A DNA stretch of 64,000 nucleotides, taken from Frigidibacter oleivorans. GTDB taxonomy: Bacteria; Pseudomonadota; Alphaproteobacteria; Rhodobacterales; Rhodobacteraceae. Each line of letters opens with the position of its first letter. The stretch's first letter is position 1. Location of the stretch: the NCBI RefSeq assembly GCF_003993775.1, contig NZ_RJRZ01000011.1:62001-126000 (forward strand), read 5' to 3'. Made by a program: the position numbers and the translations under genes. The notes below the pieces were generated by a model that saw nothing but the letters and a program-made list of their open reading frames with translations, ran no database searches and had not been told where the DNA came from. Positions 10,150-19,389 of this stretch are shown one piece after another.

Positions 10150-11721
10150 TCAGCGCGCCTTGAACAGCCCGCCGAGGATGCCGCGCACCAGCGTCCGCCC
10201 CGCCTGATTGCCCACCTGCCGCGCGAGGCTTTTGCCGAAGGTTTCGACGATGCTGTCGGACCGCGAGCTGCGCCGCGCGGTGCCGGCGGGACGCGCGGTA
10301 GACTTGCCCACCGTCTTGCCGTCATAGCGGCGGGCAGACCGGAACTCCCGCTCCTCGGCCTCGGCCCGGGCCTCGGTTTCCTCGGCCGCGGCGGCGGCCT
10401 TCCCGGCGGCCTCCGCCCGTGCCGCGAGCCGCTCGAAGGCGCTGTCGCGATCCACCGCCACCGCATATTTCGCGCCATAGGGCGAGGCCGCGACGATGGC
10501 CGCGCGCTCTTCCCCGGCGATCGGGCCCAGCTGGCTCGCCGGCGGGCGCACCAGCGTGCACTGCACCATCCCCGGCACGCCCTTGGCCTGAAGGAACGAG
10601 GTCACGGCCTCGCCGGTCCCCACCTCCCGGATCGCGGTTTCGGTGTCGAACCCGGGATTGGCGCGATAGTTCTGCGCGGCACGGGCCAGATCCTTCTGGT
10701 CCTTCGCGGTGAAGGCGCGCAGCGCGTGCTGCACCCGGTTGCCCAGCTGGCCCAGCACGTCGTCGGGCACGTCGGCGGGGTTCTGGGTGACGAAATAGAC
10801 GCCCACGCCCTTGGACCGGATCAGCCGGGCCACCTGTTCCACCTTGTCCACCAGCGCCTTGGGCGCGTCGTCGAACAGCAGATGCGCCTCGTCGAAGAAG
10901 AACACGAATCTCGGGCGGTCGGGGTCGCCCACCTCGGGCAGTGTCTCGAAGAGTTCCGACAGAAGCCACAGCAGGAAGGTCGCGTACAGCCGCGGCGCCC
11001 CCATCAGCCGGTCGGCGGCAAGGATGTTGACCCGGCCCGCCCCGCCAGGCGCGGGGGCCATCATGTCGGCCAGATCCAGCGCCGGTTCGCCGAAGAACCC
11101 CGCCCCGCCCTGATTTTCCAGCACCAGCAACTGCCGCTGGATCGCGCCGATGCTGGCGGCGGCGACATTGCCATAGCGCAGGCCGATGGCATCGGCGTTC
11201 TGCCCGATCCAGACCAGCATCGCCTGCAGGTCCTTCAGGTCCAGCAGCGGCAGGCCTTCTTCATCCGCCAGCCGGAAGGCGATGTTCAGCACGCCCTCCT
11301 GCGCCTCGGTCAGGTCGAGCAGTCGGGCCAGCAGCAGCGGCCCCATCTCGGTCACCGTGGTCCGCACCGGATGGCCCTGCTCGCCCCAGAGATCCCAGAA
11401 GGTGACAGGGGTCGCGGCATAGGCCAGGTCGTAACCGATGGTGGCCGCGCGTTCGGCGAAGGCGGCGTGCAGCTTGCCCGCGGGGTCGCCGGCTTTGGCC
11501 ATGCCCGCCAGATCGCCCTTCACGTCGGACAGGAAGACCGGCACCCCCGCGGCGGAAAACCCCTCGGCCAGAACCTGCAGGGTCACGGTCTTGCCGGTGC
11601 CGGTCGCCCCCGCGATCAGGCCGTGGCGGTTGCCGTATTTCAGCAGCAGATGCTGGGGTTCGGCATGGCCCGGGCCGCCGCCGCCGACGAAGATCGCCTC
11701 GCCCTCCAGAATACCCGTCAT
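10150..11721 (-). CDS. HerA-like ATPase, DUF853 (YjgR) family
   Basis: 523-residue P-loop ATPase. Walker A GATGTGKTVTLQ is near residue 40 and Walker B FVFFFDEAHLLF near residue 235; LIRSKGVGVYFVTQNPADVP is typical of HerA/FtsK-type motors. The C-terminal 100 residues are rich in Ala, Glu and Arg and probably helical. Family members are widespread in Proteobacteria and poorly characterised; a DNA translocase role is inferred from fold only. The start MTGILEGEAIFVGGG fits the family; the frame runs on upstream without signs of coding. Confidence 0.85.
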   Translation of the reverse strand: MTGILEGEAIFVGGGGPGHAEPQHLLLKYGNRHGLIAGATGTGKTVTLQVLAEGFSAAGVPVFLSDVKGDLAGMAKAGDPAGKLHAAFAERAATIGYDLAYAATPVTFWDLWGEQGHPVRTTVTEMGPLLLARLLDLTEAQEGVLNIAFRLADEEGLPLLDLKDLQAMLVWIGQNADAIGLRYGNVAAASIGAIQRQLLVLENQGGAGFFGEPALDLADMMAPAPGGAGRVNILAADRLMGAPRLYATFLLWLLSELFETLPEVGDPDRPRFVFFFDEAHLLFDDAPKALVDKVEQVARLIRSKGVGVYFVTQNPADVPDDVLGQLGNRVQHALRAFTAKDQKDLARAAQNYRANPGFDTETAIREVGTGEAVTSFLQAKGVPGMVQCTLVRPPASQLGPIAGEERAAIVAASPYGAKYAVAVDRDSAFERLAARAEAAGKAAAAAEETEARAEAEEREFRSARRYDGKTVGKSTARPAGTARRSSRSDSIVETFGKSLARQVGNQAGRTLVRGILGGLFKAR

Positions 11722-11817
11722 GCCGCCCCCCCCTGTCGTCTTGCGGGCCGGACACGGCCGGCGCCGGTCCGACAATACATCCTTAACCGGCTCGCGCCAG
11801 AGTGGGCGGGCCGCGCC

Positions 11818-11886
11818 GTAGTCCCGCGCGGCATGTGCTTCCTCCCTGTCGGACTGGGCCGTGTCTGCGGACGCGGCCCTTTTTTC
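11818..11886 (+). ncRNA. Candidate cuckoo/CcsR-type small RNA with anti-Shine-Dalgarno motif
   Basis: The element has the two-hairpin layout described for cuckoo RNAs of alphaproteobacteria. Hairpin 1: AGTCC (11820-11824) pairs with GGACT (11851-11855) and exposes CTTCCTCCC (11838-11846), the anti-Shine-Dalgarno motif of that family, in its loop. Hairpin 2: a 10-bp stem GGGCCGTGTC/GACGCGGCCC (11856-11879) with one G-U pair, loop TGCG, followed by six T, forms a terminator. The 5' end is not certain and no clear promoter was found. CcsR RNAs of Rhodobacter are stress-induced; any function here is inferred. Confidence 0.55.
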
Positions 11887-12020
11887 GCGCATCGCGCCGC
11901 GGGCAGGCCCCGCGCCGTCGCACCGCCGCCCGGATCGCGGGCATCGGGTCTGCCGGGCGCCCGTCTGCAAGGCAATGGCGGCCGCCGCTTCATGCATCGC
12001 ATATGGGGAATTCGTTCCTG

Positions 12021-12049
12021 TTGACGCCTGCCGCCGAAGTGCCTAGCGT
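12021..12049 (+). promoter_or_regulatory. Strong sigma-70-like promoter before second small RNA
   Basis: TTGACG (12021-12026), exactly 17 bases, then TAGCGT (12044-12049). This is the best promoter match in the gap. Transcription would begin near 12056 and meet a terminator 70 bases later, with no start codon and reading frame of use in between. Confidence 0.6.
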
Positions 12050-12055
12050 CCCCTG

Positions 12056-12126
12056 CAATCACTAAGTCGGCCAGTCCGACAGGGAGCGCATCGGGAAAAG
12101 GGTCCGTCCGGGGCCCTTTTCCTTTT
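12056..12126 (+). ncRNA. Candidate ~70-nt small RNA, complementary to the upstream RNA
   Basis: Predicted from promoter to terminator. The 5' part holds a small hairpin GTCGG/CCGAC (12067-12080); the 3' part is a terminator, GGAAAAGGG (12094-12102) paired with CCCTTTTCC (12114-12122) then a T-run. CCAGTCCGACAGGGAG (12071-12086) is perfectly complementary over 16 nt to 11842-11857 of the upstream candidate, covering half of its anti-Shine-Dalgarno motif. This suggests the two RNAs pair, perhaps as RNA and sponge. An alternative is a single longer transcript. Confidence 0.5.
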
Positions 12127-12238
12127 TCCGGCCCCCGCAACGGCCCGCGGACGCCCGGCGCAGGCATCGCGGCAGCCATCGCGGCGGCGGGATCGCGCAA
12201 TCGTCACGCCAGTCCGCCCTTGATCGCCGCTTCGGCAC

Positions 12239-12301: not shown

Positions 12302-12985
12302 ATGACCGATTTCAAGACCCCGCTCCGCCTCGCGCTCGTTCTGGCGCTCGGTGCGGCCCTTCCCGCCGTCGCACAGGACGCCGCGCCGGCCGCGCCGGCA
12401 GAAACGCCCGCCCCCGCTGCCGAGGCGCCCGCCGATGCCCCCTCCGCCGATGCGCCCGCTGCTGCCGAGGCTCCGGCCGAGGAAGGCGGCATCGGCCAGC
12501 CCTATGTCGCGGCGACGCATGGCGACTGGCAGCAGCGCTGCCTGCGCACCGAATCCGGCGCGGACCCTTGCCAGCTGTACCAGCTGCTGAACGACGACCG
12601 CGGCAATGCGGTGGCCGAGTTCAGCATGTTCGGCCTGCCCGAGGGGCAGGAGGCGGTGGCCGGTGCCACGATCATGGCCCCGCTGGAAACCCTGCTGACC
12701 GAGGCGGTGATCCTGCAGATCGACGGTGGCGAGGCCAAGCGCTATGGCTTCACCTTCTGCGCGCAACAGGGCTGTGTGGCGCGGGTCGGCTTCACGCAGG
12801 CCGAACTCGACGCCTTCCGCCGCGGCAACGAGGCGACCGTCGCTATCACGCCGCTCGGCGCGCCCGACCAGCGCGTGGCGCTGACACTGTCGCTGCGGGG
12901 CTTCACCGCCGGGTTCGAGGCGGTCGCCGCCGCGAACGAGAAGGCGAACGCGGCCGCGGCCGCCGCAGCCCCGTCCGGCAACTGA
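12302..12985 (+). CDS. Invasion-associated locus B (IalB) family secreted protein
   Basis: 227-residue exported protein: signal peptide (TPLRLALVLALGAALPAVAQ), an Ala/Pro/Glu-rich low-complexity linker (about 21-62), then the IalB domain (GDWQQRCLRTESGADPCQLY, two cysteines, and a second pair in FCAQQGCVARVGFT). IalB proteins are common in alphaproteobacteria; the invasion name comes from Bartonella and is not evidence of virulence here. A GTG nine bases upstream is an alternative start. A 14-bp tandem duplication spans the stop codon. Confidence 0.85.
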   Translation: MTDFKTPLRLALVLALGAALPAVAQDAAPAAPAETPAPAAEAPADAPSADAPAAAEAPAEEGGIGQPYVAATHGDWQQRCLRTESGADPCQLYQLLNDDRGNAVAEFSMFGLPEGQEAVAGATIMAPLETLLTEAVILQIDGGEAKRYGFTFCAQQGCVARVGFTQAELDAFRRGNEATVAITPLGAPDQRVALTLSLRGFTAGFEAVAAANEKANAAAAAAAPSGN

Positions 12986-18423: not shown

Positions 18424-19389
18424 ATGACCCAATCGCCGCCCGAAGCCGCCGCCCGGACGGGCAAGATCGCCTGTCACCTGATCGGCGCGCCCGTCGATAC
18501 CGGCCAGCGCCGCCCCGGCTGCCTGATGGGGCCGGCCGCCTATCGGGTCGCGGGGATCGCCGGGATGCTGGCCGACCTCGGCCATCAGGTGACCGACCGC
18601 GGCGATGTGGCGCTGCCGCCCCTGCGCGAGGTGACCTGCCCCAACCCGGCGGTGCATTCCCTTGCCGAAACCGTGGGCTGGACCGAGGCGCTGTCCGCCG
18701 CGGGCCGGGCGGCGCTGGCCGAGGGCGGGTTCCCGATCTTTCTCGGCGGCGACCATTCGCTGTCGCTGGGGTCGGTCGCGGGCGTCGCCGCCCATGCGCA
18801 GGCGGTGGGCCGGCCGCTGTTCCTGCTGTGGCTGGACGCGCATTCCGACTATCACACGCCGCTGACGACGAAGTCCGGCAACCTGCACGGCACGCCCGTG
18901 GCCTATATCGCCGGGCGCCCGGGCTTCGACGCCTTCCCGCCCTTCCCCGCGCCGCTGCCGACCGGGAACATCAGCCTCTATGGCATCCGCTCGGTCGACC
19001 CCGCCGAACATGCGGCGCTGCAGGAGGGCGAGATCGACATCAACGACATGCGGGTGCTGGACGAATTCGGGATCGTGGCGCCGTTGCGGGAATTTCTGGA
19101 CGTGGTGAAATCCCGGAACGGATTGCTGCATGTCTCGCTGGACGTGGATTTCCTCGACCCGTCGATCGCGCCTGCCGTGGGCACCACCGTTCCGGGCGGC
19201 ACCACCTTCCGCGAGGCGCATCTGGTGATGGAACTGCTGCACGAAAGCGGGCTCGTCACCTCGCTCGACCTCGTGGAGCTGAACCCCTTCCTCGACGAAC
19301 GCGGGCGGACGGCCCGGCTGATGGTCGATCTGGTGGCGAGCCTGATGGGCCGGAAGGTGTTCGACCGGCCGACGCGGGCCTTCGTCTAG
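18424..19389 (+). CDS. Arginase/agmatinase-family ureohydrolase, likely arginase
   Basis: 321-residue binuclear manganese hydrolase that releases urea. Metal motifs are all present: [27 protein letters not shown]. The substrate loop and the C-terminal [16 protein letters not shown] segment look more like arginase than agmatinase, so ornithine plus urea from arginine is the best guess. The ATG is preceded by GGATGCC; an upstream in-frame start lies in the terminator region and was rejected. It ends 15 bases from a convergent GMC oxidoreductase gene; no urease or ornithine genes are nearby. Confidence 0.85.

Follow-up and report, generated by a model that had tools for sequence, protein, structure and literature searches.

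Sponging of small RNAs (sRNAs) by other RNAs has been described in Alphaproteobacteria. In Caulobacter crescentus, the sRNA CrfA has been proven experimentally to sponge four siblings, SisA-D, which are alpha-R8 sRNAs, with UUUCCUCCCU as the anti-Shine-Dalgarno (anti-SD) core (PMC12559287), and in R. sphaeroides one sRNA, StsR, acts on another, UpsM (PMC8307010). The earlier note on the DNA discussed here, which proposed a small RNA with an adjacent sponge encoded on the same strand, knew of no description of such a unit; the concept has, nevertheless, been described, for both CrfA-SisA-D and StsR-UpsM. SorX and SorY, also from R. sphaeroides, are stress sRNAs connected, according to papers that cite the primary work, with singlet oxygen and with polyamine and malate transport, and they have potA and takP as targets; no antagonist of SorX or SorY was found in the literature searched.

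The locus lies in a 64-kb stretch of the Frigidibacter oleivorans genome (the window) and its features are collected in Table 1. The segment CCAGTCCGACAGGGAG at 12071-12086, in what we call the second RNA, is the exact reverse complement of CTCCCTGTCGGACTGG at 11842-11857 in the first RNA, and the 16-nt perfect complementarity between two same-strand RNAs that the earlier note had reported is therefore correct in its coordinates. Its statement that the pairing segment covers about half of the anti-SD motif is likewise accurate, as CTCCCTGTCGGACTGG shares five of the nine bases of CTTCCTCCC (11838-11846). In the 64-kb window this is the sole perfect inverted repeat of at least 16 nt with arms at most 400 nt apart, and neither the 16-mer nor its complement has an exact copy beyond the locus in the 4.05-Mb genome. 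The next-longest perfect inverted repeat of the window within this distance is 15 nt long (18501-18515 and 18707-18721), with arms about 200 nt apart. The divergent ORF upstream of the RNA pair is one that we take to encode a HerA-like/DUF853-type ATPase, and a HerA-like homologue adjoins the RNA locus in 210 of the 215 loci with a match.

Table 1. Features of the two-RNA locus and its flanking genes, in window positions.
Feature	Position	Strand	Basis or remark
HerA-like/DUF853-type ATPase gene (presumed)	10150..11721	-	ORF; divergent, upstream of the RNA pair
Probable first-RNA promoter region	11783..11803	+	TTAACC at 11783-11788; extended -10-like CGC-CAGAGT at 11795-11803
First RNA, SorX/SorY-like sibling sRNA	11812..11886	+	SorX/SorY models; 5' end deduced
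First-RNA seed	11838..11857	+	CTTCCTCCC anti-SD motif, then CTGTCGGACTGG; second RNA complementary to 11842-11857
Intrinsic terminator, first RNA	11856..11885	+	10-bp stem 11856-11879, then T6
Second-RNA promoter TTGACG-17-TAGCGT	12021..12049	+	-35 at 12021-12026; -10 at 12044-12049; consensus of 217 loci
Second RNA, candidate sponge, ~70 nt	~12057..12126	+	Covariance model R1, 71.6 bits; start deduced to within 2-3 nt
Hairpin GUCGG-CCAGU-CCGAC	12066..12080	+	Compensatory and wobble changes over 217 loci
Pairing segment CCAGTCCGACAGGGAG, near-invariant core GTCCGACAGGGAG	12071..12086	+	Conservation across relatives
Second-RNA terminator	12094..12127	+	Hairpin 12094-12122, then T5; sequence and fold
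IalB-like protein gene	12302..12985	+	Downstream of the second RNA

The promoter that the earlier note had assigned to the second RNA was verified in its coordinates and is strongly conserved over 217 related loci, where the consensus is ctGTTGACg-N-TAgCgT with a near-invariant GTTGAC (TTGAC was the extraction criterion for these loci and the other letters were free). A simple sigma-70 scan did not report this promoter, as its -10 is too distant from TATAAT. The terminator about 70 nt downstream is also present as the note had described, and it is found in relatives too. The fold of the second RNA comprises a 5-bp hairpin (GUCGG-CCAGU-CCGAC), a single-stranded AGGGAG and the terminator hairpin. 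Over the 217 loci, compensatory or wobble changes occur at stem pairs 1, 2, 4 and 5 of the first hairpin; these comprise three loci with C-G in place of U-A, a single locus each with A-U in place of G-C for pairs 1, 4 and 5, and some G-U cells, with about 12 cells broken, most of them at the first pair. In the RNAalifold result for the second-RNA alignment only this first hairpin is meaningful, because unequal linker lengths misplace the terminator. Rfam release 15, applied at gathering scores to the whole window, returned one tRNA only and no family for the second RNA; the BjrC68 model gave 12.1 bits at 12071-12126 against a cut-off of 39.

Scanning genomes with the pattern GTCGGCNNGTCCGACAGGGAG yielded at least 118 loci, and the matches listed come nearly all from Rhodobacterales or alphaproteobacterial MAGs. 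Loci from Aureimonas and Streptomyces and a further one (L151), all without the promoter, were set aside. Since the core of pattern-selected loci is fixed by the pattern, covariation was assessed on a covariance-model set, the model itself having been built from pattern-selected sequences. With this model at E 0.01, the second RNA was detected in 135 of 149 Rhodobacteraceae genomes, one per genus (132 of the 149 genera at E<=1e-5, counted from the match table), and searches of the other families of the class gave only noise, the best match there reaching 24 bits where the RNA of the window scores 71.6. The near-invariant core across the family is AAGTCGGCCAGTCCGACAGGGAG. This conservation marks the second RNA as a genuine gene, retained across Rhodobacteraceae.

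The first RNA shares with SorX (RF02784) and SorY (RF02651) of R. sphaeroides the seed CUCCCUGU(U/C)GGAC and the terminator layout. It scores 35.2 bits (E 8.6e-7) in the SorX model and 26.6 bits in the SorY model, under the respective gathering scores of 46.6 and 111, and because it lies below both cut-offs we file it as a SorX/SorY-like sibling and as neither of the two. Its identity as SorX is excluded, as the best SorX match of the genome is an orthologue elsewhere (C22:8666-8740, 76.6 bits), and its identity as SorY is excluded as well, given the low score and a separate orthologue at C5:53998-54079 (63.5 bits); both orthologues carry the seed CTCCCTGTTGGACTT. The suhB/alpha-R8 model (RF00519) gives the first RNA 20.3 bits, under a gathering score of 41, and has no match in the F. 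oleivorans genome at E 0.01. Many related loci, inspected by eye, have a similar arrangement ahead of the first RNA, with TTAACC and then, about 6-9 nt further on, TGC-CANNNT. We also note that this TTAACC is similar to a CtrA half-site, that in several loci (L074, L119, L135, L146 and others) the loop of the first RNA's 5' hairpin contains an extra pyrimidine motif such as TGTCCTCTCCTG, and that some genomes (G014, G026, G032, G005 and others) possess additional SorX/SorY-class RNAs, some of them in tandem about 150-220 nt apart.

The core of the second RNA complements not only the neighbouring seed but also the SorX and SorY orthologues. The 14-mer CTCCCTGTYNGACY, which is complementary to this core, has four matches in the 4.05-Mb F. 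oleivorans genome, namely the first RNA, the SorX orthologue, the SorY orthologue and, on the other strand, the second RNA itself, with 0 matches for a reversed-pattern control. Across ten genomes, 28 of the 33 non-self matches, assigned by hand, fall in SorX/SorY-class RNAs, and the control gave 4. Anti-SD seeds are complementary to any RNA with AGGGAG, but 13-14 contiguous pairs well exceed that. The predicted binding energies of the F. oleivorans second RNA are -23.6 kcal/mol with the first RNA, -19.2 with the SorY orthologue and -18.0 with the SorX orthologue, and shuffled targets give -8 to -9 kcal/mol (sd 2.6-2.8); in R. sphaeroides 2.4.1 the corresponding values are -16.5, -18.9 and -18.0 kcal/mol, with shuffled targets at about -9 to -10. 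By these matches and predictions, the second RNA possesses complementarity to an sRNA seed beyond chance, as a sponge should. The earlier note had cast it as the sponge of the adjacent RNA; sponging remains the best reading of its role, but at least three partners are predicted, and the neighbour is only one among them. Genomes with and without these partners also differ, as 50 of the 55 genomes with a SorX-like RNA have the second RNA and none of the 6 without a clear SorX-like RNA does (Fisher p 8e-6, with genomes counted without correction for phylogeny).

When the two pairing segments are compared across loci, own first-second pairs are predicted to bind slightly better than swapped ones, at -34.47 versus -33.90 (permutation sd 0.10; relatedness is not corrected for). 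The loop AAGT of the second RNA accompanies ACTT in the first RNA with a Fisher p of 3e-7 over leaves, but on the HerA-protein tree this amounts to about five independent changes only, too few to give a phylogeny-corrected test any power, with two independent pairs for the association and one against; a few of the ACTT counts derive from sequence beyond the seed (L212, L087), by which the association is weakened and not created. In most relatives an A.C mismatch interrupts the duplex formed with the adjacent RNA, and some clades show deletions in the pairing segment of the first RNA that are unmatched in the second. The second RNA often pairs with the SorX/SorY seed over more contiguous pairs than with the seed of its neighbour, and for this reason a sponge of the whole SorX/SorY class would fit.

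In R. sphaeroides 2.4.1, SorX and SorY were found at 2,598,225 and 1,632,645, the published positions being 2,598,224 and 1,632,642, and the RNA pair lies between katE (RSP_2779) and ialB, the catalase and IalB having been recognised by eye from their sequences. The counterpart of the second RNA is at 1,426,514-1,426,606 (-). Here (1426912-1428378) katE, with OxyR beyond it, replaces the usual HerA-like neighbour, and the RNA pair is downstream of the catalase gene on the same strand. An sRNA of this species, RSs2778, has been renamed UdsE and is reported to be 5' UTR-derived, with a 5' end that coincides with the transcription start, to occur in an sRNA-mRNA co-transcript detected by RT-PCR, and to involve RNase E and PNPase; that report gives no target or function for it (PMC8625941). 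The second RNA lies where UdsE would be expected, in the interval that separates RSP_2779 (katE) from the gene after it, and RSs2778 bears the number of the gene that neighbours katE. From position and number, the second RNA is probably UdsE/RSs2778, in which case it too, and not only the concept, had been described before the earlier note, with no function given; it is possible that the first RNA is UdsE/RSs2778 instead. StsR was also considered as the identity of the second RNA and is excluded by position, as it is RSs0827 (a locus deduced from gene numbering).

With moderate confidence, we propose, as the best mechanism predicted from sequence, that the second RNA acts by sponging sRNAs of the SorX/SorY class. 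It would be expressed in F. oleivorans as an independent sRNA some 70 nt long and possibly serve also as the ialB 5' leader through read-through of its terminator. The unpaired AGGGAG, imitating a Shine-Dalgarno sequence, would meet the CUCCCU of SorX/SorY-class sRNAs in the cell, and pairing would then zip on through the GUCGG-CCAGU-CCGAC hairpin to reach 13-16 base pairs. The resulting duplex would hide the anti-SD seed, with decay of one or both RNAs as a probable consequence and with Hfq and RNases presumably involved, the second RNA acting as sponge and not as target. The sponge would sequester its SorX/SorY-like neighbour and, from their distant loci, the orthologues of SorX and SorY. 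A wider proposal, which we give an even chance, is that the second RNA is an ancient sponge which, with its near-invariant 13-nt core, is found in about 90% of Rhodobacteraceae genera, buffers stress-induced anti-SD sRNAs (SorX, SorY and the newly recognised third sibling), and stands head to tail with one of them, forming a module of a regulator and its own titrator.

The chief rival to the sponge is a role as leader and target, in which the second RNA would mainly be the leader of ialB and SorX/SorY-class sRNAs would alter its cleavage or read-through, in the way StsR acts on UpsM and the dcw leader. We consider this unlikely, and the two roles could coexist. Of the 193 testable loci, 190 do have an IalB-like gene downstream in the same orientation, the likely counterpart UdsE is reported to derive from a 5' UTR and to be co-transcribed with mRNA (PMC8625941), and StsR-UpsM provides a precedent within the same species, R. 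sphaeroides (PMC8307010). However, the second RNA ends in a strong intrinsic terminator of which the pairing segment is clear, the core lies about 300 nt (median 310) from the IalB match and away from the start codon, and a single leader alone leaves the complementarity to every SorX/SorY-class RNA unexplained. This complementarity would be a by-product of SD-like and anti-SD usage if the second RNA were a conventional trans-acting sRNA that regulates its own set of mRNAs, which the SD-like character of AGGGAG and the independent structural conservation of the hairpin would allow; since the complementarity continues through CCGAC over 13-14 contiguous pairs and the 14-mer is almost confined to SorX/SorY-class RNAs, we regard such an origin as improbable.

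Two further readings concern the nature of the transcript itself. Folded as one RNA, the stretch 11800-12126 does form the 16-nt stem (energy z-score -3.1), and it could accordingly be viewed as a single self-folded transcript; this is very improbable, as an intrinsic terminator lies between the arms and a separate promoter, itself conserved, precedes the second RNA. The two RNAs are also separable in relatives, where a first RNA is recognisable upstream on the same strand in 170 of the 217 loci (161 of the 201 on the tree) at a spacing of 98-365 nt (median 137); the second RNA occurs with no recognisable first RNA in 40 of 201 loci, some of which are misses of the automatic search, for example the first RNA of R. 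sphaeroides. The earlier note's view of two separate same-strand RNAs with conserved complementarity is upheld by these observations. The idea that the second RNA codes for a short peptide draws on relatives that have an ATG shortly before the core, with the frame TCG GCC NGT CCG, and we reject it as having hardly any probability: an ATG directly ahead of the core is absent from 181 of the 217 loci and from the window, and the 36 loci with one have it in two phases. In addition, a set of genomes differs in loop length by a single nucleotide, and the base that varies freely would occupy the first place of its codon.

Among the known systems, the proposed sponge of SorX/SorY-class sRNAs most resembles CrfA, in that both are alphaproteobacterial, a G/A-rich stretch of one sRNA complements an anti-SD seed common to several siblings, and the proposed outcome is inactivation of those siblings. 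Unlike CrfA, the second RNA adjoins one of its predicted targets, which are of the SorX/SorY class (the first RNA scoring 20.3 against 41 with the suhB/alpha-R8 model), and it has no recognised sequence relatives outside Rhodobacteraceae; CrfA is an experimentally proven sponge, whereas the second RNA is a candidate. With StsR-UpsM it shares the principle of an sRNA that acts on an sRNA, and the 72 nt of StsR are similar to its own length, but StsR (RSs0827) is encoded at another locus (PMC8307010). If the proposal is true, UdsE, for which no function has been given, would gain a testable role, and titration of anti-SD sRNAs would be a stable circuit part, given conservation of the sponge across so diverse a family. 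Together with CrfA of Caulobacter, it would then suggest that sponges of anti-SD siblings had more than one origin within Alphaproteobacteria.
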